The notes beneath the pieces were generated by a model. It saw nothing but the letters and a program-made list of their open reading frames with translations, did not search any database and had not been told where the DNA came from. A DNA stretch of 64,000 nt. Origin: Maribacter algarum (ex Lu et al. 2025) (nom. illeg.). Lineage in GTDB: Bacteria > Bacteroidota > Bacteroidia > Flavobacteriales > Flavobacteriaceae. Both the position numbers and the translations under genes were made by a program. The stretch is from NCBI GenBank assembly GCA_947495915.1, contig CANMAW010000002.1, positions 62,001-126,000 of the forward strand, read 5' to 3'. This document shows, piece by piece, positions 4,039 through 24,267 of this stretch (its first letter is position 1; every line of letters begins with the position of its first letter).

Positions 4039-4078
4039 ACAACCAATACAGTAAAGTAAGTAACTATAATAAAAATCT

Positions 4079-5839: not shown

Positions 5840-5841
5840 AT

Positions 5842-6372
5842 ATGGCATCTAAAGTTATACAGGCATTTTATAATGATGACGATGTGTTAATGCATGCGGT
5901 CAAAAAGGTAAAAGCTGCTAAACATCATATTGAAGAAGTTTATTGTCCTTTTCCGGTTCACGGACTAGATAAGGCTATGGGCTTAGAGCCAACTAGAATA
6001 GCTATCACATCATTTATGTATGGATGTGTTGGTTTAACTGTTGCTATTGTCATGATGAATTATATTATGATAGAAGATTGGCCTCAAGACATTGGTGGAA
6101 AACCAAGTTTCAGTTATATCGAAAATATGCCAGCTTTTGTTCCAATTATGTTCGAATTGACGGTATTTTTTGCAGCGCATTTAATGGTAATTACATTTTA
6201 CCTTAGAAGTAGATTGTGGCCGTTTAAGAAAGCTGAAAATCCTGATGTTAGAACAACCGATGATCATTTTGTAATGGAAATAGAAGTACATGATAATGAA
6301 TCTCAATTACGAGATTTGTTAGCTGGTACGGGAGCTGTTGAAATTAATATATCAGAAAAAGACCTTCATTAA
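5842..6372 (+). CDS. actD: Alternative complex III subunit ActD (DUF3341)
   Basis: A small membrane subunit of alternative complex III, 176 residues. It begins with a soluble segment rich in charged residues (about 1-50, including YCPFPVHGLDKAMGL, the family signature for DUF3341). Two transmembrane helices follow (about 55-75 and 95-120), then a cytoplasmic tail. It starts 2 bases after actC and its stop is 1 base ahead of the actE start, so translation is probably coupled. ActD carries no redox cofactor in known complexes and is a structural subunit. Nothing is unusual about length or composition. Confidence 0.9.
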   Translation: MASKVIQAFYNDDDVLMHAVKKVKAAKHHIEEVYCPFPVHGLDKAMGLEPTRIAITSFMYGCVGLTVAIVMMNYIMIEDWPQDIGGKPSFSYIENMPAFVPIMFELTVFFAAHLMVITFYLRSRLWPFKKAENPDVRTTDDHFVMEIEVHDNESQLRDLLAGTGAVEINISEKDLH

Positions 6373-6373
6373 T

Positions 6374-6934
6374 ATGAATAGTTTGAAGAAAATAGGAATA
6401 CTACTAGGTTTAGTTGTGTTTGTTGTTTCTTGTCAAGACAAGAGCAAGCCGAATTATCAGTACATGCCGAATATGTATGAGCCGGTAGGTTATGAGACCT
6501 ATGAAAAGGTTGATTTTTTACCTGGTCAGATGGAAGCAATGCTACCAGTTGAAAACTCAATTCCTCGCGGATGGATGCCTTATCAGTATGAAAATACGAT
6601 TGAAGGTAAGGAAATGGCTCGTTTAATGAGTAGTCCTTTAGATTCTTTGCAAAAAGAAGAAAACTTGCTTAAGGGTGGGGAATTGTATAATATATATTGC
6701 ATGATTTGTCACGGACCTCAAGGTAAAGGGCAAGGTACTTTGGTGAAAAGAGAGAAAATATTGGGTGTTCCAAGTTACGCAGATGCAGCACGTAATGTTA
6801 CGGTAGGTACCACGTTTCATACAATTCAGTATGGATTGAATTCAATGGGTTCTTACGCTTCACAAATGAATACAGAAGAAATGTGGCAGGTTTCAGAATA
6901 TGTTATGAAATTGAAACAAGACTTAACTAAATAA
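6374..6934 (+). CDS. actE: Alternative complex III monohaem cytochrome c lipoprotein ActE
   Basis: A monohaem cytochrome c subunit, about 186 residues. The start is placed at ATG 6374 because it directly precedes a lipoprotein signal peptide (MNSLKKIGILLGLVVFVVSC) with Cys20 as the lipid anchor. An in-frame upstream ATG at 6338 would add 12 charged residues and push the signal inward. A single CMICHGPQGKG haem motif lies around residue 111, and methionines near the C terminus (MGSYASQMN) are candidate axial ligands. In known complexes ActE is attached by its lipid and can pass electrons onward from ActA. It lies 1 base after actD and 17 bases before actF. Confidence 0.93.
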   Translation: MNSLKKIGILLGLVVFVVSCQDKSKPNYQYMPNMYEPVGYETYEKVDFLPGQMEAMLPVENSIPRGWMPYQYENTIEGKEMARLMSSPLDSLQKEENLLKGGELYNIYCMICHGPQGKGQGTLVKREKILGVPSYADAARNVTVGTTFHTIQYGLNSMGSYASQMNTEEMWQVSEYVMKLKQDLTK

Positions 6935-6951
6935 TACATTAGCAACTAGAT

Positions 6952-8268
6952 ATGTACACGGTTTCGAATAAATTAAAGATGGGTGCTATTATTCTTATGG
7001 TCTTAGGAGCATTAGGAATTGCGGCTGGTTTTTTAGCTGCACCATCTACTGTAGAAGAATCAAAAGCCATGATGGCGAGTCATGATGATGGACACGGTGA
7101 TGCACATGGTGCAACCGTTAGTCATGATAACGCAGACGCTGGTGCTCATGCCATGTCAGCTGCTGAACATGATGAACATGTGTTTCATCAATTACAAAAC
7201 AAACCTTGGGCGGCATTGTACGTTGCTGCATTCTTTTTCTTTATGATTGCATTAGGGGTGTTGGCGTTTTATGCAATTCAGCGAGCAGCGCAAGCAGGGT
7301 GGTCACCTTTGCTTTTTAGGGTAATGGAAGGTATTACCTCTTATTTAGTTCCTGGTGGAATCATTGTTTTTGTGATATTACTTTTATCTGTGTTACATGT
7401 TAATCATTTGTTCGTTTGGATGGATGCAGACGTTGTGGCTCATGATGCATTATTACAGGGTAAATCTGGATATTTAAATCCAACATTCTTTTTAATAAGA
7501 GCAGCGATATTCTTAGCCGGTTGGATTGCTTACCGAGAATATTCTCGAAAACTATCATTAGCGCAAGATGAATCTACTGATGATTCGAATTTTAAACTAA
7601 ACTTCAGAATTTCAGCTGCATTTTTGGTATTCTATTTGATTTCAGAATCAATTATGTCTTGGGATTGGATTATGAGTGTAGATCCGCACTGGTTTAGTAC
7701 ATTATTTGGCTGGTATATTTTCGCTAGTATGTTTGTCTCAGGTATAACCGTTATTGCAATGGTTACTATTTACCTAAAGTCAAAAGGACATTTAGAAGAA
7801 GTAAACAATAGTCATATTCATGATTTAGCGAAATTCATGTTCGGTATCAGTATTTTTTGGACCTACCTATGGTTTTCACAGTTTATGTTGATTTGGTATG
7901 CAAATATTCCTGAAGAGGTTACCTATTATGTCACTCGAATTCAAGATTATAATTTACCATTTTTCGGTATGATTGCAATGAACTTCTTGTTCCCTGTTTT
8001 GTTATTAATGAATAGTGATTACAAGCGTATGAACTGGTTTGTAGTAATGGCAGGTGTTGTAATTCTTGCTGGACATTACATGGATATTTTTAACGCCATT
8101 ATGCCTGCAACAGTAGGTGATCAATGGTTTATCGGTATTCCGGAAATTGGAGCGGTATTATTCTTTGCGGGCTTATTTCTATTTTGGATTTTTAGAGCTT
8201 TGGCATCAGCACCATTACAACCAAAGCGGAATCCATTTATTGAAGAAAGCAGACATTTTCATTATTAA
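6952..8268 (+). CDS. actF: Alternative complex III NrfD-like membrane subunit ActF
   Basis: The second NrfD-like integral membrane subunit of alternative complex III, 438 residues, homologous to ActC. A first transmembrane helix (about 10-28) is followed by a soluble loop very rich in histidine, aspartate and alanine (about 44-80, many His within HDDGHGDAHGATVSHDN and the following stretch). After this come roughly nine further hydrophobic helices with conserved pieces such as SIMSWDWIMSVDPHWFSTLFGW and WYANIPEEVTYY. It lies downstream of actE and 21 bases upstream of coxB, so the quinol-oxidising complex and the oxidase are co-transcribed. This fits the supercomplex of ACIII with aa3 oxidase known in flavobacteria. 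Confidence 0.93.
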   Translation: MYTVSNKLKMGAIILMVLGALGIAAGFLAAPSTVEESKAMMASHDDGHGDAHGATVSHDNADAGAHAMSAAEHDEHVFHQLQNKPWAALYVAAFFFFMIALGVLAFYAIQRAAQAGWSPLLFRVMEGITSYLVPGGIIVFVILLLSVLHVNHLFVWMDADVVAHDALLQGKSGYLNPTFFLIRAAIFLAGWIAYREYSRKLSLAQDESTDDSNFKLNFRISAAFLVFYLISESIMSWDWIMSVDPHWFSTLFGWYIFASMFVSGITVIAMVTIYLKSKGHLEEVNNSHIHDLAKFMFGISIFWTYLWFSQFMLIWYANIPEEVTYYVTRIQDYNLPFFGMIAMNFLFPVLLLMNSDYKRMNWFVVMAGVVILAGHYMDIFNAIMPATVGDQWFIGIPEIGAVLFFAGLFLFWIFRALASAPLQPKRNPFIEESRHFHY

Positions 8269-8289
8269 TACGATTAAAGTATAACTTAA

Positions 8290-9348
8290 ATGACAACAGT
8301 ATTAACTTTAGCTGTTTTAGCACTAGTGGCAATCGCAATCTGGCAAATGACCAAGATTTTTGAATTGTCGCAATTGAGATCAGAGAACGCGCAAATAGCG
8401 AACGATACCGACAATAAGAATAATGGTTATTTGTTGTTTGCCTTTATGGTATTCACTTATTTAATTACCATTTTTAGTTTCTATAAGTATTCGAAATTCT
8501 TGCTTCCAGAGGCATCTTCGGCGCATGGTGAAGAGTACGATCTATTAATGTTGGTTTCTTTTGTAATCATTTTTATTGTTCAATTTATAACTCAATTTTT
8601 ATTACACTATTTCGGGTTTAAGTACCGAGGTAAAAAGGGTAATAAGGCATTGTTTTATGCAGATAATGATCGATTAGAGTTTATTTGGACTATCATACCA
8701 GTAATCGTTTTAGCAGGACTAATATTATGGGGTTTATTTACTTGGACTACCATTATGGATGTTAATGAAGATGATGACCCGCTAATTGTTGAGTTGTATG
8801 CGCAGCAGTTTAATTGGACAGCTAGATATGGTGGAACAGACAATGTTCTGGGTGATGCAAATGTTAGAATGATCGATATTGATAAAGCAAATGTACTGGG
8901 GTTAGATGAATCAGATACCTATGGTTCAGATGATGTTATAGTAAAAGAATTACACCTTCCAGTAGGTCGAAAGGTTAATTTTAAGATGCGTTCGCAAGAC
9001 GTTTTACATTCTGCTTACATGCCACACTTTAGAGCACAGATGAACTGTGTACCAGGTATGATCACTGAATTTTCATTTACACCTATTACTACAACTGCAG
9101 ATATGAGGAAAAATCCTGATGTTATAGATAAGGTAAATAGAACAAACAAAATTCGAGCGGAAAGAGCTGCTAATGGTGAAGATAATGCTGACCCATGGGA
9201 ATTTGATTATATTTTATTATGCAATAAAATATGCGGAAAATCTCACTACAATATGCAAATGAAAATTATTGTTGAGACTCAAGAAGAATATGATGCGTGG
9301 ATGAAAACGCAACAAACGTTTGGTCAAACAATGGCATCAGTACAATAG
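8290..9348 (+). CDS. coxB: Cytochrome c oxidase subunit II
   Basis: Subunit II of an aa3-type terminal oxidase, 352 residues, carrying the binuclear CuA centre. Three hydrophobic segments are visible (about 1-20, 48-70 and 82-112, then 126-150). The periplasmic cupredoxin domain contains HSAYMPHFRAQMN and the CuA ligand block CNKICGKSHYNM near residue 315, with the expected two Cys, His and Met. There is no C-terminal cytochrome c extension, so electrons must come from a separate cytochrome, presumably ActA/ActE. An acidic insertion around residues 185-215 (DKANVLGLDESDTYGSDD) separates strands of the domain and is typical of this lineage. It is followed 44 bases later by coxA. Confidence 0.95.
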   Translation: MTTVLTLAVLALVAIAIWQMTKIFELSQLRSENAQIANDTDNKNNGYLLFAFMVFTYLITIFSFYKYSKFLLPEASSAHGEEYDLLMLVSFVIIFIVQFITQFLLHYFGFKYRGKKGNKALFYADNDRLEFIWTIIPVIVLAGLILWGLFTWTTIMDVNEDDDPLIVELYAQQFNWTARYGGTDNVLGDANVRMIDIDKANVLGLDESDTYGSDDVIVKELHLPVGRKVNFKMRSQDVLHSAYMPHFRAQMNCVPGMITEFSFTPITTTADMRKNPDVIDKVNRTNKIRAERAANGEDNADPWEFDYILLCNKICGKSHYNMQMKIIVETQEEYDAWMKTQQTFGQTMASVQ

Positions 9349-9392
9349 TAATTTCTATTTAAGAAGATTAATAAAAAATAAAGATTTCGAAT

Positions 9393-11198
9393 ATGTCAGC
9401 AGAAGGACACGAAGAAGGACATCACCACCACAAAGAAACCTTTGTAACTAAATATATTTTTAGTACTGATCATAAGATGATCGCAAAGCAATACCTTATT
9501 ACCGGTGTATTGATTATGGGTTTCATAGGAATTGCAATGTCTTTGTTTTTCAGAATGCAAATTGCATGGCCTGGAGAGTCATTTCCAATTTTTGAGGCGA
9601 TATTAGGTAAGTGGGCTCCTGATGGAGTAATGGATGCAGATATCTACTTAGCCTTAGTTACTATGCACGGTACGATAATGGTATTCTTCGTACTAACTGC
9701 CGGTTTGAGTGGTACGTTTAGTAACCTTTTAATACCGTTGCAGATTGGTGCACGTGATATGGCATCAGGCTTCTTAAACATGCTTTCTTTTTGGCTGTTT
9801 TTCCTTTCTTGTGTGCTAATGGTTGTTTCCTTGTTTGTTGAAGCAGGGCCTGCTGCAGCCGGCTGGACTATTTATCCTCCTTTAAGTGCCTTACCCATGG
9901 CACAACCAGGTTCTGGTTTGGGTATGACTCTTTGGTTGGTTTCTATGGCTATTTTCATTGCATCATCACTTTTAGGTTCTTTGAATTATATTGTTACAGT
10001 ACTTAACTTGAGAACAAAAGGAATGTCAATGACAAGATTACCATTAACAATATGGGCTTTCTTCGTAACGGCAGTTATTGGTGTTATATCATTCCCAGTA
10101 TTACTTTCAGCAGCATTGTTGTTGATCATGGATAGAAGCTTTGGTACATCTTTCTTTTTATCAGATATTTTTATTCAAGGTGAGGTATTACATTATCAAG
10201 GTGGATCGCCAGTTTTATACGAGCACTTATTCTGGTTTTTAGGCCACCCTGAGGTATACATTGTATTGCTACCAGCTTTGGGTATTACTTCTGAAGTGAT
10301 GTCTACGAATGCACGTAAACCCATTTTTGGATATCGTGCGATGATTGCTTCTATTTTAGCGATTGCATTTTTATCTACCATTGTATGGGGTCACCATATG
10401 TTCATTTCAGGTATGAATCCATTCTTAGGATCTGTATTTACATTTACTACCTTATTAATTGCTATTCCTTCTGCTGTAAAGGCCTTTAATTATATCACTA
10501 CATTATGGAAAGGTAACTTGCAGTTAAATCCGGGAATGTTGTTTTCTATTGGACTAGTATCAACATTTATTACTGGAGGTTTAACAGGAATTATTTTAGG
10601 TGATAGTACCCTAGATATTAATGTTCATGATACCTATTTCGTTGTAGCTCACTTTCACTTAGTTATGGGTATTTCTGCCTTGTATGGTTTATTTGCAGGG
10701 GTATATCATTGGTTCCCAAAAATGTTTGAAGGTAAGATGATGAATAAGAATTTAGGTTATGTGCACTTTTGGGTGACTGCGGTTTGTGCTTATGGGGTTT
10801 TCTTTCCAATGCATTTCGTAGGTATGGCTGGTGTTCCTAGACGTTACTACGAGAATACTGCATTTCCTATGTTCGATGAATTGACAGATGTTCAAGTATT
10901 AATGACGGTATTTGCATTGATTGCAGCTGCTGCTCAATTGGTATTTGTCTACAACTTTATCAGTAGTATTTTCTACGGTAAAAAAGGACCAAAAAATCCA
11001 TGGAATTCAAATACTTTAGAATGGACAGCAGAAGTTAAGCACATTCACGGAAACTGGGATGGCCCGATTCCCGAAGTACATCGATGGGCTTATGATTATA
11101 GTAAAGTTGATGCAAATGGGGAATACATTATTCCGGGTCAAGATTTCGTGCCACAGACAGTGCCTTTACAAAAAGATGAGGAAGAGCTTCAACATTAA
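9393..11198 (+). CDS. coxA: Cytochrome c oxidase subunit I
   Basis: The catalytic subunit of an aa3-type haem-copper oxidase, 601 residues with about 12 transmembrane helices. Visible ligands are the low-spin haem histidine in VTMHGTIM, the CuB histidine and cross-linked tyrosine in GHPEVYIVLLP, the CuB His pair in WGHHMF, and the HDTYFVVAHFHLVMG block carrying the high-spin haem a3 and second low-spin haem ligands. The N terminus carries a histidine-rich patch (GHEEGHHHHKE). The gene closes the act-cox operon, and a strong intrinsic terminator begins 23 bases after the stop. Subunits III and IV are not here; they lie at 44.8-47.0 kb. Confidence 0.97.
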   Translation: MSAEGHEEGHHHHKETFVTKYIFSTDHKMIAKQYLITGVLIMGFIGIAMSLFFRMQIAWPGESFPIFEAILGKWAPDGVMDADIYLALVTMHGTIMVFFVLTAGLSGTFSNLLIPLQIGARDMASGFLNMLSFWLFFLSCVLMVVSLFVEAGPAAAGWTIYPPLSALPMAQPGSGLGMTLWLVSMAIFIASSLLGSLNYIVTVLNLRTKGMSMTRLPLTIWAFFVTAVIGVISFPVLLSAALLLIMDRSFGTSFFLSDIFIQGEVLHYQGGSPVLYEHLFWFLGHPEVYIVLLPALGITSEVMSTNARKPIFGYRAMIASILAIAFLSTIVWGHHMFISGMNPFLGSVFTFTTLLIAIPSAVKAFNYITTLWKGNLQLNPGMLFSIGLVSTFITGGLTGIILGDSTLDINVHDTYFVVAHFHLVMGISALYGLFAGVYHWFPKMFEGKMMNKNLGYVHFWVTAVCAYGVFFPMHFVGMAGVPRRYYENTAFPMFDELTDVQVLMTVFALIAAAAQLVFVYNFISSIFYGKKGPKNPWNSNTLEWTAEVKHIHGNWDGPIPEVHRWAYDYSKVDANGEYIIPGQDFVPQTVPLQKDEEELQH

Positions 11199-14531: not shown

Positions 14532-15557
14532 ATGAATGAACATTTAGATCCATCAGCAGATGGTTTTTCTAACGAAGAGCTCGATATAGAAAAGGCTTTA
14601 CGCCCAGTAAGTTTTGATGATTTTACAGGTCAAGAGCAGGTGCTTGAGAATCTAAAGGTTTTTGTACAGGCCGCTAATCAAAGAGGTGAAGCCCTTGATC
14701 ATACTCTATTTCATGGCCCACCAGGCTTAGGTAAAACTACTTTAGCACATATTTTAGCTAATGAATTAGGTGTAGGTATTAAAATCACGTCAGGCCCTGT
14801 ATTAGACAAACCAGGAGATTTGGCAGGTTTGCTAACCAATCTTGACGACCGTGATGTGTTATTCATTGATGAAATTCATCGTTTGAGCCCTATTGTTGAA
14901 GAGTATTTATATTCTGCAATGGAAGACTATAGAATCGATATTATGATTGAAACTGGTCCGAATGCTCGTTCTGTTCAAATCAATTTGAGTCCATTTACTT
15001 TGATAGGTGCAACAACTAGATCAGGTTTACTTACCTCACCAATGCGTGCACGTTTTGGTATTCAAAGTCGATTGCAATATTATGATACCGAATTACTTTC
15101 TACTATTGTACAGCGAAGTGCTGATATATTAAAAGTGCCTATTACGAATGAGGCCTCTATTGAAATTGCTGGTCGTAGTCGAGGAACACCAAGAATATGT
15201 AATGCATTACTAAGAAGAGTTCGAGATTTTGCTCAGATTAAAGGTAATGGCAGTATTGATATGGAAATTTCAAAATTTAGTCTAAAGGCCTTGAATGTTG
15301 ATGCTCATGGTTTAGACGAGATGGATAATAAAATTCTAACTACTATAATTGAAAAATTCAAAGGCGGCCCTGTGGGAATAACCACTTTGGCAACTGCGGT
15401 TTCTGAAAGTGCTGAAACAATTGAAGAGGTTTATGAACCTTTTTTAATTCAGCAAGGTTTTATCATGAGAACCCCTAGAGGTAGAGAAGTAACTGATCTG
15501 GCTTACAAACACCTAGGAAAGTTAAAAGGAGGTATACAGCCAGGACTTTTTGAATGA
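14532..15557 (+). CDS. ruvB: Holliday junction branch migration ATPase RuvB
   Basis: RuvB is the hexameric AAA+ motor that drives branch migration of Holliday junctions together with RuvA. This 341-residue protein has the normal family length. Walker A is GPPGLGKTT (residues 62-70), Walker B/DEIH is in [10 protein letters not shown] (about 111-120), and sensor 1 ([19 protein letters not shown]) and the arginine-finger region follow. The C-terminal winged-helix domain is visible in [33 protein letters not shown]. Its partner ruvA lies about 20 kb downstream, at 34278, not adjacent. The stop overlaps the start of a cytochrome P450 gene by 4 bases. Confidence 0.97.
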
Positions 15558-16879
15558 AGAAAATTCCAATAATTTCGGCGGTTAGAGTTTTTAAGAATCG
15601 AAAACATATTCTTGAAAATCCGCTACCATTTCATCATGCTAACTTCGAAAAGTTTGGTGATGTTTTTCAAGTAAATATTGGACCGAGTGGGCGCATTATA
15701 TTTACGAGAAACCCAGAGCATATTAAACAAGTTCTACAGAAACATCACAAAAAATACCATAAGTCTACATTACAATCTCGTGATTTAGCAAAATATATTG
15801 GCAAAGGTTTGTTGACTTCAAATGGAAATCATTGGCGAACGCATCGTAGAATGATTCAACCTGCTTTTCATAAAAAGAAATTAGAAGGTTTATTGTCAAT
15901 AATGAATGACGCAATAAATCATGAGTTGCAATACGAAGCAACAAATAAGTTGCATGATATTCATCCATTAATGGGTGACTTGGCTTTTCAGGTGGTAGCC
16001 AAATCGCTTTTTAGTCGAAATGACATTCAAGATGAAATGGCAGAGCTGAAAAGAATAACTGATGCCAATCAGCAAATGTTAATTCGAGAAATGAGACAAC
16101 CTTTCATGGGTTGGTGGTTTAAAATTAGTGGTGCAATTCGAAAGCATTTGAAACTATCAAAAAAAGCCAGACACCTGTTAAATACAATTATTGAAGAACG
16201 AATATCTTCTGATATTGAAAAAGACGATCTTTTAGATATGCTTCTCAAAGCAAGATATGAAGATGGTACGGCAATGTCTCGTGATCAGTTGATCGATGAA
16301 GTTCTAATATTATTTACTGCTGGCCATGAAACTACGGCTAATGCTTTAAGTTTCACCTTGTATTTACTTGCAAAAAATCCAGAGGTACAAGAGAAGGCCT
16401 TTCAAAATGTTTCAGAAGTTAATTTAGACGATAAGAATATTTTAGAAAACCTCTCGAACTTACAGTACATTAAACAATGTGTTGAAGAAGCAATGCGTCT
16501 GTTTCCACCTGCTTATTATATTGATCGAATGAATATTGTTGATGATGAGTTTGGTGATTACCAAATTCCTAAGAAATCTATGGTGCTGCTTGCGATTTAT
16601 GAACTACATCGTGATAAGAATTTTTGGAATGATGCTGAAGCTTATCAACCAGAGCGATTTAATCCTGAAAATAAAAAAGACTTTTCAAACTACTACTATC
16701 CGTTTGGGGCGGGTCCGCGTATGTGTGTAGGTAATAATTTTGCCATGTATGAAATGATTTTAGCTATTTCAATTTTGGTGAAGAAATATAAAATATCAAC
16801 TACTGTTGCAGATATTGTAATAAATCCATTAATAAGTCTACGCCCAAAAGAAGCTCTTATCAATTTTAATCCCCGTTAA
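15554..16879 (+). CDS. Cytochrome P450 monooxygenase
   Basis: A soluble bacterial cytochrome P450 of 441 residues with no signal peptide or membrane anchor. The diagnostic elements are in order: the oxygen-binding I-helix motif [10 protein letters not shown] (about residue 255), the K-helix ExxR in EEAMRLFPP, the PERF motif (YQPERFNPE), and the haem loop [17 protein letters not shown] with Cys391 as thiolate ligand. No fused reductase is present and no ferredoxin or reductase gene lies nearby, so the electron donor is unknown. The general sequence resembles the fatty-acid/lipid-hydroxylating bacterial P450s, but the substrate cannot be assigned. The ATGA overlap with ruvB implies co-transcription despite the unrelated function. 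Confidence 0.93.
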
Positions 16880-17037
16880 TAAATTTACTTAAAATTGAAT
16901 TTTTGTAAATTAAGGTACCAATTTGTTTAGTTTTAGTACATTACTAGTTCTAAATACAGCATATTTTGCACCAGGTGTAACAACCCCCTAATGCTTGTGC
17001 AATTGTGGCATTTCACAATGATGGTAAAAAAGCATTC

Positions 17038-20000
17038 ATGGGCATAATTATTACATTTAACTTTTCTAAAATTCGAACATTTTTATGGGGCAATAGGCTA
17101 CTTTACTTGGTTTATTTGTGCATGTTAGTCAATGAAAGTGGTTATGCGCAAGAGTTGAATATTGACTACTTGTCAGGCCAAAGCTCTATACGATTTACTG
17201 CAATAGAAAAAGGATTAGCCGGACAGTATGTATCGACAGTAATTCAAGATGATTTGGGATTTTTATGGGTAGGTACTCAAGATGGACTATACCGTTTTGA
17301 TGGCAGTGAAACTAAAGCTTATAGATATAATCCTATTAAAGAATCATTACCCGGTACTTGGGCACGTGTTATTTGTCAAGATGATCGTGGTATTTTTTGG
17401 TTGGGTGTTAATGGACATGGTCTCTCACGTTTTGAAAGTCAAAACAATAGTTTTAAAAACTATTCAGAAGAAGTTGGTAATGCATTGTCATCACAAGGTT
17501 TAGTAGTCTCTCAAATTCTTTGTAGTAAAGCAGGTGACGTTTGGATTCGAACAGAGCTGGGTTTGTTTAAAAAGGATAAACTCGATGACGGTTTTACCAG
17601 AATGATGAATAATTCACCTTCAATCTTTATAAACGAAACTACTGATGGTACGTTATTAGTGGCAAAGGAAAGACAGTTGTTTGTATATCATGATCAAACG
17701 GACGCATTTGAACCACAATTAGAAAATGTATTTATAGAACAATTAGAACCTACTAATGATGAACAGGTTATTTTGAGGTCTTCAGGAAAAGTGTTTTCCT
17801 TTAATTTAAAATCTAAAGAATTTAATGAGATTATATTTCCTGAAAAAATAAGCCTACTGTCTAATTATCAAAACAACATTATCTATTTTTTAGGCGAAAG
17901 TAAGTTGTTTAAATATAATAATTTATCAGGTACTGTTGAAGCATTGCAAATGCAGAACACGCGATTAGATTTAAAAGATGTTAAAGATCTTTTTGTTGAC
18001 AATGAAAGTGTTTTATGGGTGAGTAGTCGTAAGGGGCTTTATAAAGAAAATACTCGTGGTGATGTATTTAAAGAAACCATTCCGTTGCATGCAAGAGGAA
18101 TTTATGTGGATAGTACTCATGTTTATGTGGGAGGAAGAAAAGGTTTTTATAAATATCACAAAGAGAATAAGTCTATTACTCCCATTCTTGAAAATGTTTA
18201 TGTGCTCTCTTTGTATAAAACAGCGGAAGGTTTTTGGTTAGGTGATCTTTATGGAAATCTTTACTTCGTTGACCACAATGGTGATTTTAGAAAATTTGAA
18301 TCGATCATTGAAAAAGAGGATAGTCCTATTCGTGAGATTTACGGTATAACAGAAGATCGCAATGGGTTCATGTGGATTGGCTCTTGGGTGGGCTTGCATT
18401 TGGTGAATAAAAATGGTGACCTTATAAGAACTTTTGATTTGCAAAAAGAAGACACCAATAAGGCAATAAATATTGCCAAATTACATATTGATCGAAATGA
18501 TAATTTATGGATTACTACCGTGGGTAATGGTGTTTATAAAGCGCCTTTTATATCAATGGTGAGTTCAAAAACTAAAGAATTCACCTATGACCATTATGTC
18601 CATGTTCAAGGCGATGAAACGACTTTAAATTCAAATGTGCTTTATGAAATTCTCGAGGAAGATGATGGCACTTTATTGTTTGGTTCTAATTTCGGAGTAA
18701 ATATCTACGATCAAAATGCTGATGCATTTACAGCATTGAAAAAGGAAGCCAAATTGTTCGACTTAAATGTGATGTCTTTAAAAAAGGATAAGAACGATTT
18801 ATTGTGGATTAGTACCATTAATGACGGAATTTTTGTTTACGATAAGGTCAAGAATAAGTATTTTAGTTTAAATCAAAATGACGGTCTAATTTCAAACGCT
18901 TGTCTTTTTAATTCAAGTTTCTTATTTCAGAATGAATTGTTTTTTGGAACAGAAGATCATGTTCAAATAATTGATCCACATAAGCTAATTTATCCAACCA
19001 ATGATAAAGAACCCTTAATCTTAAATTTAAACGTTTATGGGGAAGAAGAGACACCATCAGCATCTATATTGAATGATCGCCAAGTGAATTTAGATTACGA
19101 TCAATCTAACTTTACCATTCGCTTTCAATTACTAGATTTTCGCTTTTCTGATAAGGTGAATTATTTTTACAAAATCAACGAGATACAAGAAGAGTGGCGA
19201 CAAACTAGTGTCAATACCGCAAATTACACCAACCTACAACCTGGTGCATATAATTTTCTACTAAAAGCAACATATGATTCGCAAGTTTCAGATGCAATGC
19301 CAGTTTCAACCTTAAGTATAGTTATTACACCACCTTGGTGGAAAACGTGGTGGGCGTATTTGATTTACTTTATACTCATTGCGACATTGGCCTATTTGTT
19401 TTATCGATTTAAAGTGTCTCGAAAATTAGCCTTTGAAGAGAGTAAGCGATTAAAAGAAATAAATAAGCTTAAGAATAGTCTTTATACTAACATTACCCAT
19501 GAATTTAGAACACCTTTAACGGTGATTTTAGGAATGGCGGGCAGCATTAAAGATAAACTGGGTCAACGAAACATGAATGAAGTTGATCAACCTCTTGAAA
19601 TGATTGAACGCAATGGTGAAAATTTACTTCACCTAGTGAATGAAATGCTAGATCTTGCAAAGTTAGAAAGCGGAAATATGGAGCTCAATTTAGTGCATGC
19701 TGATGTGGTTTCCTTTATAAAATATATCTGTGAAAGCTTACAATCATATGCTACTGAATCAAAAATTAATGTGGTGGTATATGCAGAAGTAGACCACTTA
19801 CTGATGGATTTTGATGAACAGAAGTTGCAAGCTATTGTATGTAATTTATTATCGAATGCCATTAAATTTTCAGCTGAAGGCGATGAAATTATTGTCCATT
19901 TAAATAAGCTTTCGCAAGACAGTTCTGATTTTCTTTACATTAAGGTAAAGGATAATGGGGTTGGAATTGCTGAAGAAGCTTTGCCTCATATTTTTAACAG

Positions 20001-21012
20001 ATTCTACCAAGAAGATGCTCCTATGACCAGAAAAGGAGAAGGCACAGGTGTTGGTCTTTCATTGACCAAGAGTTTTGTAGAACTTATGAACGGAAGTATA
20101 ACTGTCAAAAGTCAGGTCAACAAAGGAAGCGAGTTTGAGATTCAGTTGCCAGTTTCAAGTACGGCTTCAATTTCTAGTTTAGATTACAGGGAAACAGAAT
20201 CACCGCAGGTGAACTTTAAAAAGACCAAAGTGGTACTTGAAAATACGGTTTCAAAAGCGAGTAATTTACCTCTTGCTTTGATCATTGAAGATAATACAGA
20301 TGTGGCATTTGTATTGAAAAGTACCTTGAGTAATAAATACCAAACGCTGCATGCTGAAAATGGCCAAGTGGGATTAGAAATGGCGTTTGATGTAATTCCT
20401 GATGTAGTAATTTGTGATGTAATGATGCCAGTACTCGATGGGTATGAAGTTTGTGAGACATTAAAAACGGACCATCGAACGAATCATATTCCTATTATAA
20501 TGCTAACTGCTAAAGTGACACAAAAAGATCGCCTTTCGGGATTGTCACATGGGGCCGATTCTTATTTGGTAAAACCATTTGAAACTGCAGAATTGTTGAC
20601 CAGAATGAACCAGTTGATTTTACTTCGAAAGAAATTGGTTGAAAAGTTTGAAAATGATGGTTTGTCGAGTTTTCTTAAATCTCGAACTGAAAACCCGGCC
20701 GATCAATTTCTTAAAAATGCTATACGCAGTATTCATGATGAGATTGGAAATGCAAATTTTGGAGCCAAACAATTAGCATTTCAATTGCATTTAAGTGAAT
20801 CTCAAACGTATCGTAAAATCAAATCAATTACTAATGTTTCTACAGCCGTTTTTATTCGTTCGGTGCGTTTGAAAAAAGCAATAGAGCTGGTGTTAGAAAC
20901 AAATGACACCATCTCAGAAATAGCCTATGCGGTCGGGTTTAATGATCCTTCTTGGTTTAGCCGTGCTTTTAAAGATGAATTTGGCTGCAGTCCTAGTGCA
21001 ATGCGCAACTAA
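17038..21012 (+). CDS. Hybrid two-component system protein (sensor kinase + receiver + AraC-type DNA-binding domain)
   Basis: A one-protein two-component system of about 1324 residues. The start at ATG 17038 is preferred over an in-frame GTG at 17005 because it gives a cleaner signal peptide ending near GYAQ. In order: a periplasmic Reg_prop beta-propeller region (about 60-690; recurrent motifs such as DDLGFLWVGTQDGLYRFDG, EDRNGFMWIGSW and KNDLLWISTINDGI), a Y_Y_Y-type domain (about 690-770), a transmembrane helix (WWAYLIYFILIATLAYLFYRF region), HisKA with the phospho-accepting His821 in THEFRTPL, HATPase_c (NGVGIA, GEGTGVGLSL), a receiver with Asp1127 (CDVMMPVLDGYE), and a C-terminal AraC/XylS helix-turn-helix. 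Such proteins usually control polysaccharide-use loci. Here the downstream neighbour is instead a sulfur-type operon, which may be the target. Confidence 0.93.
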   Translation: MGIIITFNFSKIRTFLWGNRLLYLVYLCMLVNESGYAQELNIDYLSGQSSIRFTAIEKGLAGQYVSTVIQDDLGFLWVGTQDGLYRFDGSETKAYRYNPIKESLPGTWARVICQDDRGIFWLGVNGHGLSRFESQNNSFKNYSEEVGNALSSQGLVVSQILCSKAGDVWIRTELGLFKKDKLDDGFTRMMNNSPSIFINETTDGTLLVAKERQLFVYHDQTDAFEPQLENVFIEQLEPTNDEQVILRSSGKVFSFNLKSKEFNEIIFPEKISLLSNYQNNIIYFLGESKLFKYNNLSGTVEALQMQNTRLDLKDVKDLFVDNESVLWVSSRKGLYKENTRGDVFKETIPLHARGIYVDSTHVYVGGRKGFYKYHKENKSITPILENVYVLSLYKTAEGFWLGDLYGNLYFVDHNGDFRKFESIIEKEDSPIREIYGITEDRNGFMWIGSWVGLHLVNKNGDLIRTFDLQKEDTNKAINIAKLHIDRNDNLWITTVGNGVYKAPFISMVSSKTKEFTYDHYVHVQGDETTLNSNVLYEILEEDDGTLLFGSNFGVNIYDQNADAFTALKKEAKLFDLNVMSLKKDKNDLLWISTINDGIFVYDKVKNKYFSLNQNDGLISNACLFNSSFLFQNELFFGTEDHVQIIDPHKLIYPTNDKEPLILNLNVYGEEETPSASILNDRQVNLDYDQSNFTIRFQLLDFRFSDKVNYFYKINEIQEEWRQTSVNTANYTNLQPGAYNFLLKATYDSQVSDAMPVSTLSIVITPPWWKTWWAYLIYFILIATLAYLFYRFKVSRKLAFEESKRLKEINKLKNSLYTNITHEFRTPLTVILGMAGSIKDKLGQRNMNEVDQPLEMIERNGENLLHLVNEMLDLAKLESGNMELNLVHADVVSFIKYICESLQSYATESKINVVVYAEVDHLLMDFDEQKLQAIVCNLLSNAIKFSAEGDEIIVHLNKLSQDSSDFLYIKVKDNGVGIAEEALPHIFNRFYQEDAPMTRKGEGTGVGLSLTKSFVELMNGSITVKSQVNKGSEFEIQLPVSSTASISSLDYRETESPQVNFKKTKVVLENTVSKASNLPLALIIEDNTDVAFVLKSTLSNKYQTLHAENGQVGLEMAFDVIPDVVICDVMMPVLDGYEVCETLKTDHRTNHIPIIMLTAKVTQKDRLSGLSHGADSYLVKPFETAELLTRMNQLILLRKKLVEKFENDGLSSFLKSRTENPADQFLKNAIRSIHDEIGNANFGAKQLAFQLHLSESQTYRKIKSITNVSTAVFIRSVRLKKAIELVLETNDTISEIAYAVGFNDPSWFSRAFKDEFGCSPSAMRN

Positions 21013-21183
21013 TTGATATTTAGATAATTGAATCTTCGTTTTGTAGTTGTGATGCAAGAATACTTCTAGTCTAAATTAGTATTCAATCATAGTTCATTGC
21101 TTTGCTTTAATAGTAAAAGCAAACATCCTTTCCTTGTTTTAAAATTGTAAAGCTTTAAGGCTACGCTGAGGTATTGTAAATAG

Positions 21184-21199
21184 TGAAATGTGAATTTCA
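21184..21199. promoter_or_regulatory. Inverted repeat upstream of the TsdA-like gene, possible operator
   Basis: TGAAAT-GTGA-ATTTCA is a 6+4+6 inverted repeat about 37 bases before the first possible start of the dihaem cytochrome gene. Its position would suit a regulator site, possibly for the AraC domain of the upstream hybrid sensor. This is inference, and short A/T-rich repeats arise by chance. Confidence 0.25.
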
Positions 21200-21235
21200 T
21201 AAGAGTGTGGTGAATATTAAAACTTAACAATAGTC

Positions 21236-22282
21236 ATGAAAGATTTGAAGATGACAACGCTGCAACTAGCTTGTAAAAACCAAATGCGCAGACTCGTGTT
21301 TTCAATTGGGTTGGTACTGTCATTAACATTGTTTGTTTTTTCGGCTTGTTTAGATGAGCCGAAAATTGAACCCGTTCAAGAGGTGTTTTTAGATGAAGTA
21401 TACACCTACAATTATGATGCTCAGCTTTTAAATGCTTCACCGAAAAATGAACTAATACAATTTGGTTTTGAAGTTTTTCAAAACACATCAAAGTATATCG
21501 GTCCTGAAAATACGGAGGAAGCGAATATGTATGCTGGTAATAATCTCTCGTGTAATAATTGTCATTTAGCTTCTGGTACCAAGCCATTTGCGGCTCCTCT
21601 TATTGGTATTTCAAAAAGGTTTCCTCAGTACAGAGGTAGAGAAAATAAAATAGGTTCCCTTGAAGAGCGCGTGAATGGATGTATGGAGCGTAGTATGAAT
21701 GGAAAAGCATTACCAGTCAATAGTAAGGCTATGCAGGGCTTGCTAGCTTATATGGAATGGTTGAGTAGGTATAGTCCCGCAGATGGAAAAATAGCAGGAC
21801 AAGGTTTTGTGTCCTTAATTATTCCCGATCGGGCAATAGATTATGACAAAGGGCAATTAATCTTCAATTCTAAGTGTTCGGTTTGTCATGGCATTGGGGG
21901 TAAAGGAGTAAAATCACCTGAGGGAACAGGTTATGAATATCCACCCCTTTGGGGAAATGACTCGTACAATAATGGTGCTGGTATGACTCGGGTAATTACA
22001 GCTGCTCGGTTTATAAAAGGGAATATGCCTTTTGGTACAACTTATAATAATCCAGTGTTATCTGATGAAGAAGCTTATGATGTTGCAGGTTTTATAAATC
22101 AACAACAACGGCCCATAAAGAAAAACCGAGAAAAAGATTTTCCTGACCTGCGAAAAAAGCCAGTTTCAACACCGTATCCTCCGTATGCTGACACTTTTTC
22201 AATACAACAGCATCAAGTAGGTCCTTTTCCTCCAATCATAAAATATTATCAAAACGAGTACAATATTGTTAAATCTAAATAG
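21236..22282 (+). CDS. TsdA-like dihaem cytochrome c (putative thiosulfate dehydrogenase), lipoprotein
   Basis: A dihaem c-type cytochrome of up to 348 residues. Counting from ATG 21236, haem motifs are CNNCH (106-110) and CSVCH (214-218). Between them lies RVNGCMERSMNGKAL with Cys149. In thiosulfate dehydrogenase TsdA this motif supplies the unusual cysteine axial ligand of the catalytic haem. Met250 or Met264 (KGNMPFG) are candidate ligands for the second haem. A lipobox (FVFSAC, Cys38) indicates an outer- or inner-membrane lipoprotein; an internal ATG at 21284 would give a more normal signal length and is a real alternative start. Known TsdA joins two thiosulfates to tetrathionate. The following DsrE-like and TauE-like genes support a sulfur role, but oxidation of another sulfur compound is possible. 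Confidence 0.75.
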   Translation: MKDLKMTTLQLACKNQMRRLVFSIGLVLSLTLFVFSACLDEPKIEPVQEVFLDEVYTYNYDAQLLNASPKNELIQFGFEVFQNTSKYIGPENTEEANMYAGNNLSCNNCHLASGTKPFAAPLIGISKRFPQYRGRENKIGSLEERVNGCMERSMNGKALPVNSKAMQGLLAYMEWLSRYSPADGKIAGQGFVSLIIPDRAIDYDKGQLIFNSKCSVCHGIGGKGVKSPEGTGYEYPPLWGNDSYNNGAGMTRVITAARFIKGNMPFGTTYNNPVLSDEEAYDVAGFINQQQRPIKKNREKDFPDLRKKPVSTPYPPYADTFSIQQHQVGPFPPIIKYYQNEYNIVKSK

Positions 22283-22287
22283 TGATT

Positions 22288-22968
22288 ATGGAAACACAAA
22301 CTAAAAATTCAAGAAGAAACTTTATGGGGGCAATGATGCTTGGCGCTACTGCAAGTACCCTTTCTATGTTCGCAAATCCAATTTTCGGCAACATGCCAAA
22401 TTTTGAGCCAACAAAAATGAGTGAAGCAGAAGATTGGTTTAAGAAGATAAAAGGGAAGCATCGAGTGGTTTATGACGGTTCAACACCCCACGACGGATTC
22501 CCTATTATTTGGAACTGGGCCTTCTATCTCAGTAATAATGAAACCGGGTCTGATGATAGTGATATTACTGCAATGACGGTATTGCGTCATAACGCCATTC
22601 CATTTGCATTCAAGTCTGATTTATGGAAAAAATATAATCTGGGAAAAGTCTTTGCTGTGAATGATAATGCTACCAAAGCTCCTGCTTTGCGAAACCCCTA
22701 TTATCAACCTCAAGAGGGTGATTTTCCAATGCCAGTTATTCAAGGTATTAAAGACATGCAAAAAAGGGGAGCGATGTTCTGTGTTTGTAATTTGGCGATA
22801 TCGGTTTATAGTGGAGCAGTGGCACAACAGATGGGAATAGACCCAAAAGATGCGTACCAAGAATGGGTTGATGCCATTCACCCGGGAATTCAATTAGTTC
22901 CTTCAGGAGTTTGGGCCTTAGGAAGAGCTCAAGAAAATGGCTGTGGATACATTTTTGCAGGTAATTAA
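22288..22968 (+). CDS. Tat-exported DsrE-like protein
   Basis: A 226-residue exported protein. The start is set at ATG 22288, 5 bases after the upstream stop, rather than the overlapping GTG at 22282. A twin-arginine signal is present (SRRNFMGAMMLG, Arg9-Arg10, then a hydrophobic stretch), so it is exported folded. The mature part ends with a block closely parallel to the next gene: VCN.., then PGIQLVPSGVWALGRAQENGCGYI, against VCE.. and PGVTTVPDGIYEIVIKQQQGWGYI there. I therefore read it as a long divergent DsrE/DsrF-like protein. Cysteines at FCVCN and NGCGY are candidates for persulfide binding or metal. Export by Tat suggests a cofactor is inserted in the cytoplasm. Function is not established. 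Confidence 0.65.
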   Translation: METQTKNSRRNFMGAMMLGATASTLSMFANPIFGNMPNFEPTKMSEAEDWFKKIKGKHRVVYDGSTPHDGFPIIWNWAFYLSNNETGSDDSDITAMTVLRHNAIPFAFKSDLWKKYNLGKVFAVNDNATKAPALRNPYYQPQEGDFPMPVIQGIKDMQKRGAMFCVCNLAISVYSGAVAQQMGIDPKDAYQEWVDAIHPGIQLVPSGVWALGRAQENGCGYIFAGN

Positions 22969-22994
22969 TAACATTTAATTTAAAAATATTAATA

Positions 22995-23408
22995 ATGAAA
23001 AATTATATAATTCTGCTCATCGTGGTAATGTTTGGGGCGTTTTCTCAAGCACAACAAACGCCAATTAAAGTGGTATTTGACGTTACTAGTGGTAATGTAG
23101 ATGTTCATAAGTCTGCAGCACGTCATTTACGGCTAATGTCTGAAAGCTACCCTGATTCTCAGTTTGAATTGGTAGTTTATAGCAGTGCATACGCCATGGT
23201 TGACAACAATTCATCAAGTGCTGGTGAAACGCTTCGTAAAATTGTCAAGAACAAAAACGTTTCAATTGTAGTTTGTGAGAATACCTTAAAAAGAAACAAA
23301 AAAGGTAAAGATGATTTAATACCTGGGGTAACTACAGTACCCGATGGTATCTATGAGATTGTTATAAAACAACAACAAGGTTGGGGATATATTAAAGAAG
23401 GCAAATAA
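22995..23408 (+). CDS. Periplasmic DsrE/DsrF-like family protein
   Basis: A 137-residue protein with a Sec signal peptide (MKNYIILLIVVMFGAFSQAQ) and one DsrE-like domain. Visible family features are KVVFDVTSGNVDVHKSAARHL, the strand FELVVYSSAYAMV, a single conserved cysteine in SIVVCENTLKRN, and the closing PGVTTVPDGIYEI...GWGYIKEG. DsrE-type cysteines carry sulfur as persulfide in sulfur-transfer relays. Here the single cysteine could play that role in the periplasm. It sits 26 bases after the Tat-exported relative and 12 bases before the permease start, in the same operon. Confidence 0.8.
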   Translation: MKNYIILLIVVMFGAFSQAQQTPIKVVFDVTSGNVDVHKSAARHLRLMSESYPDSQFELVVYSSAYAMVDNNSSSAGETLRKIVKNKNVSIVVCENTLKRNKKGKDDLIPGVTTVPDGIYEIVIKQQQGWGYIKEGK

Positions 23409-23420
23409 TCTTGAAATAGT

Positions 23421-24230
23421 TTGCAAGCTGTGGAGTACATTCAATTATTTGGTTATGTTGGTGCTCTAGCAATAGGGGTAGTACTGGGTTTGATGGGTAG
23501 TGGAGGTTCGTTAATGGCGGTACCTATTTTCACCTATATGTTTCACATCAACCCTGTAACTACAACGGCTTATTCACTATTTGTAGTGGGAGTTGTTGCA
23601 ACTTTTGGAGTGCTGCAAAACATAAAAAAGGGGCTTGTTGATTTCAGAATAGCTTTGGTTTTTGCACTTCCTTGTTTTATTACAGTTTATGTAGTGCGAA
23701 GGTTTCTTATGAATCAAATTCCTGATGAAATAGCTCACTTTAATGACTTTGTTTTAACTAAGCATATTGTAATTATGCTACTCTTAGTTTTTTTAATGGC
23801 TTTAGCGGCAATAGCGATGTTACGAAAAAACGCAAACAATAGTGAGCCACTAGTTCATAAGTATGCTATTGTTGTATTTATAGTAGGAGGGGTGTTAATA
23901 GGATTTCTTACCGCCTTGGTTGGTATTGGTGGCGGATTTCTTATCATTCCTATTCTTGTTATATATATTAATATGCCCATTCAAAAAGCCATTGCTACTT
24001 CTTTGTTGATTATAGCCTTAAAGTCGCTCATAGGATTTTTAGGTGATATAAATCATATTGCAATGAATTGGTCATTTCTTTTAGTTTTTACCGGTATTGC
24101 TGTTCTAGGGATTATATTAGGAATGCAATTGGCAACTATTATTAACGGCAAAAAGTTAAAGAAGTATTTCGCTTATTTTTTGATTGTTTTGTCTATATGT
24201 ATTTTTTCTAAAGAAATGCTGTTTATTTAA
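23421..24230 (+). CDS. TauE/SafE (TSUP) family membrane permease
   Basis: An integral membrane protein of about 269 residues and 8 hydrophobic helices, with the two-fold internal repeat of the TSUP family. The signature GVVLGLMGSGGSLMAVPIF near the N terminus recurs as GFLTALVGIGGGFLIIPIL in the second half. The family moves sulfite, sulfoacetate, thiosulfate or related anions. No ATG is available before the first helix, so translation must begin at TTG 23421 or GTG 23430; a stop codon lies just upstream. Its place as the last gene of the TsdA/DsrE operon suggests export of the sulfur product or uptake of substrate. Confidence 0.85.
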   Translation: MQAVEYIQLFGYVGALAIGVVLGLMGSGGSLMAVPIFTYMFHINPVTTTAYSLFVVGVVATFGVLQNIKKGLVDFRIALVFALPCFITVYVVRRFLMNQIPDEIAHFNDFVLTKHIVIMLLLVFLMALAAIAMLRKNANNSEPLVHKYAIVVFIVGGVLIGFLTALVGIGGGFLIIPILVIYINMPIQKAIATSLLIIALKSLIGFLGDINHIAMNWSFLLVFTGIAVLGIILGMQLATIINGKKLKKYFAYFLIVLSICIFSKEMLFI

Positions 24231-24240
24231 AAAACAAAAA

Positions 24241-24267
24241 ACCGAAGCAGATCGCTTCGGTTTTTTT
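24241..24267. terminator. Bidirectional intrinsic terminator between the sulfur operon and the ABC genes
   Basis: An 8-bp perfect stem (24241-24248 with 24254-24261), loop AGATC, is flanked by an A-rich run on the left and seven T on the right. It can therefore terminate both the rightward sulfur operon and the leftward ABC operon that ends at 24291. Confidence 0.9.

Follow-up and report, generated by a model that had tools for sequence, protein, structure and literature searches.

A 64,000-nt stretch of the genome of Maribacter algarum, here called the window (positions below are window positions), carries a locus at 17038-24230 in which a tsdA gene stands next to genes for two exported DsrE-fold proteins. 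These three genes, for a cytochrome of the thiosulfate dehydrogenase/tetrathionate reductase (TsdA) family, for a DsrE-fold protein with a twin-arginine translocation (Tat) signal (tat-dsrE), and for a small secreted DsrE protein (dsrE), form a conserved core unit that is a new combination within known families. We refer to them as the triad. A hybrid two-component sensor (HTCS) gene lies upstream and a TauE/SafE permease gene follows. An earlier note on the window, made from its sequence, had proposed that the locus is a periplasmic sulfur oxidation and export unit, perhaps under control of the sensor. The conserved association of TsdA with two exported DsrE-fold proteins agrees with that proposal; the permease is optional, and the case for the oxidative direction is weakened by haem 2, which has the Asn-Met pair known from a reduction-biased TsdA of Campylobacter jejuni.

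Conservation of the triad

A contig scan with the Tat protein gave 440 relatives, and the best 80 were taken as loci. All three genes are present in 65 of these 80 (open reading frame (ORF) tables and tblastn). Around the Tat-protein matches in Flavobacteriaceae, the order TsdA, Tat-DsrE, DsrE is kept in 36 of 39 loci, the exceptions being L072, L075, which is cut by a contig end, and L076, a paralogue. Thus the comparison of gene order across Bacteroidota that the earlier note had suggested came out in favour of the triad. Among 299 genomes of the family, the Tat protein occurs in 39 and TsdA at E 1e-25 or better in 53, with 38 genomes holding a TsdA copy of at least 55% identity over most of its length. 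Both the Tat protein and this TsdA type occur in 37 genomes, and only three have one without the other: the Tat protein in G223 (with a more distant TsdA elsewhere) and G280, and this TsdA type in G200, where rhodanese-like genes adjoin tsdA. The 15 genomes with TsdA and without the Tat protein are G200 and 14 that have only a distant TsdA (45-51% identity).

Beyond the family, six further genomes of the class have the Tat protein (7/295 when the window's genome is included). There tsdA is beside the Tat gene in L077 and L078, on the opposite strand in L079, and not adjacent in L080-L082. All eight searched genomes in which the Tat gene is unlinked to tsdA have a TsdA elsewhere (38-45% identity). 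A second TsdA type gave 18 matches, and 17 loci were examined (L181, L182, L184, L185, L187-L190 and L193 among them). An OprD-like porin gene adjoins tsdA in nine of the 17 (Pfam on one example, blast clusters for the rest), and in five tsdA adjoins a DsrE-like gene whose product has a signal peptide as judged by eye (Pfam on one example, blast clusters for the rest), which supports the tie between TsdA and DsrE. Rhodanese-like genes, recognised by eye, adjoin the cluster in L145, L149 and L162 and adjoin tsdA in L180. In one flavobacterial group (L119, L134 and L105), an OsmC-like gene and a large pyruvate:ferredoxin oxidoreductase-like gene, also read by eye, lie upstream of the triad.

The flanks of the triad vary. 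In 16 of the 80 loci, from Muricauda/Flagellimonas and allies, tsdA is immediately preceded by a ruvB-like gene, and a queG-like gene directly follows DsrE in 16, with both present in 13; one example of each was compared with the genes of the window and showed 89% (ruvB-like) and 81% (queG-like) identity. In the window the order is ruvB, P450, sensor, triad, TauE, ABC pair and queG, which suggests that the triad is older and that the sensor and TauE joined it later. TauE directly follows DsrE in 17/80 loci and is an optional accessory of the triad. Two Algoriphagus loci (L094 and L096), from another family, encode Tat-DsrE proteins 75-77% identical to that of the window. A hybrid sensor gene immediately precedes each of these Tat genes, neither has an intact tsdA beside it, and the arrangement looks like horizontal transfer. 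Just before the Tat gene of L096, at 6905-6991 of that locus, 29 codons resemble the end of tsdA, and tsdA was therefore probably once there.

A cytochrome of the TsdA class

The cytochrome has the haem motifs CNNCH (residues 106-110) and CSVCH (214-218) and also Cys149, in line with the dihaem cytochrome with a TsdA-type cysteine that had been noticed in the sequence. It scores 43.4 bits against the SoxA-TsdA cytochrome domain (cut-off 27) and matches the TsdA structures 4v2k and 4wq7 at E 8.8e-49, the best structure match being the K208N mutant 4wqc (E 1.3e-49). Its AlphaFold model, a structure prediction that the earlier note had recommended, has a predicted local distance difference test (pLDDT) score of 90.6 and the TsdA fold. 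The model aligns with Allochromatium vinosum TsdA (4v2k) over 231 residues at 40% identity (VIA Z 28.0); its score against SoxAX (1h31) is well below this, at Z 11.6. Assignment as SoxA was rejected, with 44 bits against TIGR04484 and an equivalog cut-off of 110.

Cys123 of A. vinosum TsdA is described as the haem-1 ligand and S-thiosulfonate carrier, surrounded by Arg109, Arg119 and the TsdA-specific Ser127 (PMC4423706). By alignment to the TsdA structures, R109, R119, C123 and S127 correspond to R135, R145, C149 and S153 of the window protein. Among 53 sequences, the window's and 52 of 63 non-redundant full-length relatives (69 labelled), these four are kept in 53/53, as are C106/C109/H110 and C214/C217/H218. 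Based on sequence and model, we consider it settled that the cytochrome belongs to the TsdA class, with Cys149 as the predicted haem-1 ligand by equivalence to the TsdA ligand. At haem 2, His218 and an Asn263-Met264 pair are likewise found in 53/53.

The N terminus consists of a hydrophobic segment with a long predicted helix and a lipobox-like FSAC ending at Cys38. Lipoprotein anchoring was rejected as a general trait of these TsdA, since the lipobox-like cysteine occurs in only 7/53 sequences, and therefore membrane anchoring rather than lipidation looks like the general feature. The cytochrome and the Tat protein are each single-copy in the host genome (assembly size 4.17 Mb in 35 contigs, completeness 99.99%), which also encodes TatC.

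Two exported DsrE-fold proteins

The two exported DsrE-like proteins of the earlier note were both recovered, with the correction that the Tat protein is recognised by fold and profile comparison, without a Pfam match. Pfam DsrE (PF02635) did not match the window protein and matched 0/21 members of the Tat protein family at E up to 1. The model of the Tat protein (pLDDT 85.8) has a DsrE fold, and the first ten structures in the VIA comparison (Z 13.5 to 8.8) are all DsrE-type, the next being unrelated at 5.0. Scores are 13.4 to 2pd2, 12.2 to 1l1s, 10.5 to YchN, 10.1 to a DsrEFH chain and 9.5 to 3mc3. Four of the ten are titled DsrE, DsrF or DsrEFH (2hy5, 3mc3, 2qs7 and 3pnx), one is TusBCD and one is a DsrE-like design; the other four (2pd2, 1l1s, YchN 1jx7 and 2fb6) we take to be DsrE-type structures. 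In Foldseek only 2pd2 and 1l1s fell below E 0.001, and the same two are the best structure matches of the small DsrE profile. Compared with 2pd2, to which 107 of residues 58-224 align, the Tat protein has about 60 residues inserted in its DsrE core.

Profile comparison with the small DsrE family covers the C-terminal part of the Tat protein and aligns Cys167 with Cys94 (E 3.4e-5 for a single comparison, probability 72). The C-terminal 84 aa also find the DsrE gene of L155 (27% identity over 84 aa, E 2e-4). By its predicted fold and by these comparisons, the Tat protein is a member of the DsrE superfamily. Cys167 (226-aa numbering) is present in 21/21 sequences of the Tat family set and is invariant in a larger alignment of 72. 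For the 137-aa small DsrE protein, the PF02635 score is borderline (22.5 bits, cut-off 22.7), while its family profile matches 2pd2 at E 2.6e-16, and Cys94 is invariant in 50/50 sequences. The TSUP permease named in the earlier note is well supported by PF01925, at 134.6 bits against a cut-off of 32.6.

The Tat protein also resembles NF052225 (ThioSDhTetH, thiosulfate dehydrogenase) of NCBIfam. The window protein gives 19.3 bits (E 5.6e-4), and 18 of 21 diverse family members match at E up to 0.01, the best at 3.6e-8. In L081 the match is collinear, with residues 43-223 against 70-258 of 259. Of eight relatives tested singly, seven match, at most with 31.2 bits, and L076 does not. Membership by the NCBI rule was rejected, all scores being far under the 300-bit equivalog cut-off; at the level of profile similarity, the Tat protein is distantly related to NF052225. 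Judged from its name and length, NF052225 probably describes AFE_0042 of Acidithiobacillus, and if so AFE_0042 probably has the DsrE fold too. AFE_0042 of A. ferrooxidans is reported as a thiosulfate dehydrogenase of about 25 kDa (PMC6335251) and as a Tat-signal protein in a doxDA operon (PMC2754497). A plasmid search for AFE_0042-type genes with the Tat protein of L082 gave no match.

The hybrid sensor and other regulators upstream of tsdA

The sensor combines the Reg_prop domains of a periplasmic propeller with Y_Y_Y, HisKA, HATPase_c, Response_reg and HTH_18 domains in one chain, the composition of an HTCS. In a tree of 26 such sensors, of which 11 are close to the triad and the other 15 are not, the near-triad ones require at least six changes, against 8.7 for shuffled labels (22/500 shuffles as low); the window sensor is on a long branch (1.54) in this tree and two rows are partial. 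The tsdA-adjacent sensors are thus clustered at most weakly and are not one clade, and the sensor was rejected as an orthologous tsdA partner as a general rule. Close relatives (46-55% identity, partial length) in G184 and G203 lie apart from tsdA, and around the one in G598 the 19 kb examined contain no tsdA.

Sensors of this kind had been said to stand normally beside polysaccharide loci. That fits the two other full-length hybrid sensors of the host genome (L173 and L174), which adjoin sulfatase-like genes, and does not fit this subfamily, whose relatives (L164-L171, L175 and L176) adjoin lipoprotein, collagen-like, leucine-rich repeat (LRR)-like or unrelated genes. All of these neighbours were read by eye, with labels taken from sequence and known motifs. 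A role as a polysaccharide-locus regulator is not favoured, given that subfamily relatives are beside small secreted lipoproteins and other genes.

In 15 of 74 loci, the gene immediately preceding tsdA, or preceding the Tat gene at loci that lack tsdA, is on the same strand and encodes a protein with an AraC-type helix-turn-helix (HTH); the background is 21 of 598 other ORFs (Fisher p 9e-7, uncorrected for relatedness). The 74 are those in which an upstream gene could be seen, with ORFs shorter than 150 aa passed over; related genomes inflate the count, and further tandem regulators of the same loci were counted in the background. The 15 comprise eight hybrid sensors and seven short regulators. 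All nine short regulators tested at triad loci, not all of them directly adjacent, have an N-terminal SCO4226-like domain (PF14026) and an AraC HTH. Such regulators were seen upstream of tsdA or the Tat gene in L084, L086, L088, L095, L097, L108, L129, L135 and L155, often in tandem and up to four together. SCO4226 itself is described as a nickel-binding protein (PMC4186839).

Twelve genomes were chosen, nine with this tsdA and eight with at least one PF14026 match. Of their 23 PF14026 matches, 15 are no more than about 7 kb from tsdA, one of the 15 being a stand-alone domain downstream (G258). Matches near tsdA occur in six of the seven tsdA-bearing genomes that have any, and the two in G246 are elsewhere. 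There was no PF14026 match in the window's genome or in G203, and none in 14 control genomes. Small stand-alone genes of one cluster also lie beside the triad in L085 (9007-9279), L099 (9136-9438), L135 (5239-5625) and L141 (8152-8406); the two that were checked, with the L099 gene represented by its copy in L172, match PF14026.

The position before tsdA is therefore often taken by a regulator with AraC output, and here the hybrid sensor occupies it. Because AraC regulators recur upstream, and relatives have SCO4226-like/AraC proteins in the same slot, local control of the operon by the sensor stays plausible. The regulatory link is thus weaker than the earlier note proposed, and is not a fixed partnership of orthologues.

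Proposed mechanism

We think it probable, on balance, that the locus encodes an exported three-gene sulfur unit, composed of TsdA and two DsrE-fold carriers, with oxyanion transport by TauE and perhaps control by the sensor. In this proposal TsdA would interconvert thiosulfate and tetrathionate at the outer face of the inner membrane. The conserved residues suggest that thiosulfate would be bound to Cys149 on haem 1 as S-thiosulfonate, as in known TsdA chemistry, and electrons would pass via haem 2 to or from the respiratory chain. Cys167 and Cys94 would most likely accept thiosulfonate or sulfane sulfur, with either tetrathionate or TsdA as the donor, and carry it onward, by analogy to DsrE3A/TusA. 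From its family, TauE may move a sulfur oxyanion, e.g. sulfite or thiosulfate, across the inner membrane. Control of the operon may fall to the hybrid sensor, in place of the AraC-type regulators of relatives.

Regarding direction, we mildly favour net thiosulfate oxidation over tetrathionate reduction, because terminal oxidase genes (Cox1/Cox2) lie 10-13 kb upstream of the sulfur locus. Flavobacteria are stated to oxidise thiosulfate in marine sediments in a study that cites earlier work for this, and the same study placed most sediment TsdA in phyla other than theirs (PMC12345210).

Several points weigh against this reading as a whole. The carrier role of the DsrE proteins is argued from family analogy, and TsdA and DsrE activities in the flavobacterial members are predicted from sequence. 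In work on DsrE3A, which forms Cys-S-thiosulfonate from tetrathionate and is described as not reacting with thiosulfate, DsrE2B did not react (PMC4175335). Asn263-Met264 matches the reduction-biased TsdA of C. jejuni. Adjacent TsdA is absent in 11/80 loci (L121, at a contig end, nine of Algoriphagus and one other of Cyclobacteriaceae), and eight of the 80 are without an adjacent DsrE. Finally, the triad is not accompanied by orthologues of the sensor as a rule, and in several genomes the nearest relatives of the sensor are found away from tsdA.

Alternative explanations

The unit might instead mainly reduce tetrathionate, as an electron sink or for removal of a thiol-reactive compound, with the DsrE proteins acting as tetrathionate-splitting thiols. 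The invariant Asn263-Met264 pair equals Asn254-Met255 of C. jejuni TsdA, which is reported to be biased to tetrathionate reduction, where A. vinosum has Lys208-Met209 (PMC5146829), and the reactivity of DsrE3A with tetrathionate points the same way. In the same account of C. jejuni TsdA, however, only the haem-2 Met is strictly conserved, the preceding residue varies, and N254K did not make the enzyme oxidative (PMC5146829); therefore the haem-2 residue does not fix the direction. The terminal oxidase genes nearby speak for oxidation. We regard predominant reduction as unlikely, though a serious contender. It is improbable that the Tat protein acts as an AFE_0042-type thiosulfate dehydrogenase in its own right and passes electrons to the cytochrome, giving two oxidising proteins in series. 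Such a series would suit the widespread and collinear NF052225 matches and the reported Tat signal, size and activity of AFE_0042, but those matches score far under the cut-off, and equating NF052225 with AFE_0042 depends on name and length. A Sox-like reaction, in which the cytochrome would oxidatively join thiosulfate straight to a DsrE carrier cysteine as SoxAX does with SoxYZ, seems slightly less probable again. TsdA and SoxA share mechanism and fold, as structure comparison also indicates (PMC4423706), DsrE proteins can hold Cys-S-thiosulfonate (PMC4175335), and the genes are linked. Against this, the fold of the cytochrome is far closer to TsdA than to SoxA, and it has the TsdA-specific Ser153, the corresponding feature of TsdA being described together with a small cavity (PMC4423706). 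SoxY (PF13501) gave no match in the host genome, but the positive control was equally silent, so this is no sign of absence.

The sensor could also be unrelated to the sulfur genes, having other targets and merely sitting upstream, and we give this a little less than an even chance. The tsdA-adjacent sensors are not a clade, close relatives occur away from tsdA beside lipoprotein, LRR-like or other genes, and in the loci with a ruvB-like gene directly upstream of tsdA no sensor lies between. The excess of AraC-type regulators directly upstream of tsdA over background argues for a connection, however, as do L094 and L096, where a sensor of this subfamily is directly upstream of the Tat gene although tsdA is missing.

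A wider idea, which we hold to be rather unlikely, is a carrier-based thiosulfate system outside Sox. Here exported DsrE-fold proteins would serve TsdA by holding thiosulfonate or sulfane sulfur, and regulation would lie with SCO4226-like/AraC proteins or with a hybrid sensor that took their place; AFE_0042 would then be a DsrE-fold thiol carrier. If this were true, AFE_0042, an enzyme that does not reduce ubiquinone or cytochrome c, would need a redox partner and would not be a stand-alone dehydrogenase.

Layout of the locus and its surroundings

The ORF table agrees with the five genes, the coordinates and the single (plus) strand given in the earlier note (Table 1). The gaps of 5, 26 and 12 bases between tsdA, the Tat gene, DsrE and TauE are exact, and the terminator placed after the operon corresponds to a terminator-like hairpin. 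Read on the plus strand it has a 7-pair stem (CCGAAGC/GCTTCGG) followed by seven T; the scanner listed it for the minus strand, with 14 pairs including A/T arms, and it could also serve the convergent ABC genes. No match to a Bacteroidota promoter pattern was found upstream of tsdA with the one pattern tried, which has four matches in the window compared with 5.7 by chance, and sigma-70-like matches in the window are at chance level (34 vs 29.1).

Table 1. Positions of the genes and other features of the sulfur locus in the window
Feature	Position	Strand	Remarks
Hybrid two-component sensor, 1324 aa	17038-21012	+	ATG start; GTG at 17005 possible; candidate regulator
Gap between sensor and tsdA, 223 bases	21013-21235	+	Presumed operon promoter region
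tsdA, dihaem cytochrome c, thiosulfate dehydrogenase/tetrathionate reductase family	21236-22282	+	Domain and structure matches
Tat-exported DsrE-fold protein, 226 aa from ATG	22288-22968	+	GTG at 22282 possible, giving 228 aa
Small DsrE protein, secreted, 137 aa	22995-23408	+	Borderline Pfam match and family profile
TauE/SafE (TSUP) permease	23421-24230	+	TTG start; PF01925
Terminator-like hairpin	24236-24266	+ and - readings	T-run on either strand

Upstream of the sulfur locus, window positions 919-11198 hold genes for a Fer4/NrfD-type complex, followed by Cox2 and Cox1. The Fer4/NrfD-type genes resemble those of alternative complex III. The cytochrome P450 gene between ruvB and the sensor is at 15554-16879, and an ORF of 2409 aa is located at 34865-42094.

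Significance and comparison with known systems

Marine Flavobacteriaceae are abundant heterotrophs, and their contribution to the turnover of thiosulfate and tetrathionate is poorly defined. For these bacteria, TsdA with two exported DsrE-fold proteins is a concrete and testable unit. The DsrE fold predicted for the Tat protein gives a hint to the nature of the unusual small thiosulfate dehydrogenase of Acidithiobacillus, and the SCO4226-like domain joined to AraC is an uncharacterised regulator type, a candidate sensor tied to sulfur chemistry. The points most likely to surprise a specialist are this fold, with its distant thiosulfate dehydrogenase link, and the occurrence of the SCO4226-like/AraC regulators at tsdA in relatives. 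We found no report of a TsdA/DsrE cluster in Bacteroidota, or of SCO4226-like/AraC regulators of sulfur genes, among the titles and abstract openings listed by searches of the open-licence PMC literature.

The sensor shares its whole domain order with the HTCS of Bacteroidota, and differs in that the subfamily relatives examined, as read by eye, are not beside obvious polysaccharide genes. With A. vinosum TsdA (4v2k and 4wq7) the cytochrome has in common the fold, the two haem motifs, the cysteine ligand of haem 1 and the equivalents of R109, R119 and S127, whereas it has Asn in place of Lys208 at haem 2, an N-terminal hydrophobic segment, about 50 more C-terminal residues and different neighbour genes. 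We know of no Tat-DsrE/DsrE partners of the TsdA of C. jejuni 81116. That enzyme is alike in the Asn-Met at haem 2, a likeness drawn from the residues described and not from an alignment (PMC5146829). SoxAX-SoxYZ is similar in placing a cytochrome of the SoxA/TsdA family beside possible carriers with a conserved cysteine, the window cytochrome differing in its TsdA-type active site. AFE_0042 and NF052225 are comparable to the Tat protein in Tat signal, size, distant similarity to NF052225 and location in a sulfur operon; in contrast, AFE_0042 belongs to an acidophile and its gene is with doxDA and not tsdA, and the Tat protein scores under the NF052225 cut-off. DsrE3A/TusA of Metallosphaera cuprina and the DsrE/YchN/TusBCD fold family share the fold and a conserved cysteine of reactive type. 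These proteins are cytoplasmic, whereas those of the window carry Tat or Sec-type signals, one of them with the insert of about 60 residues in its core.

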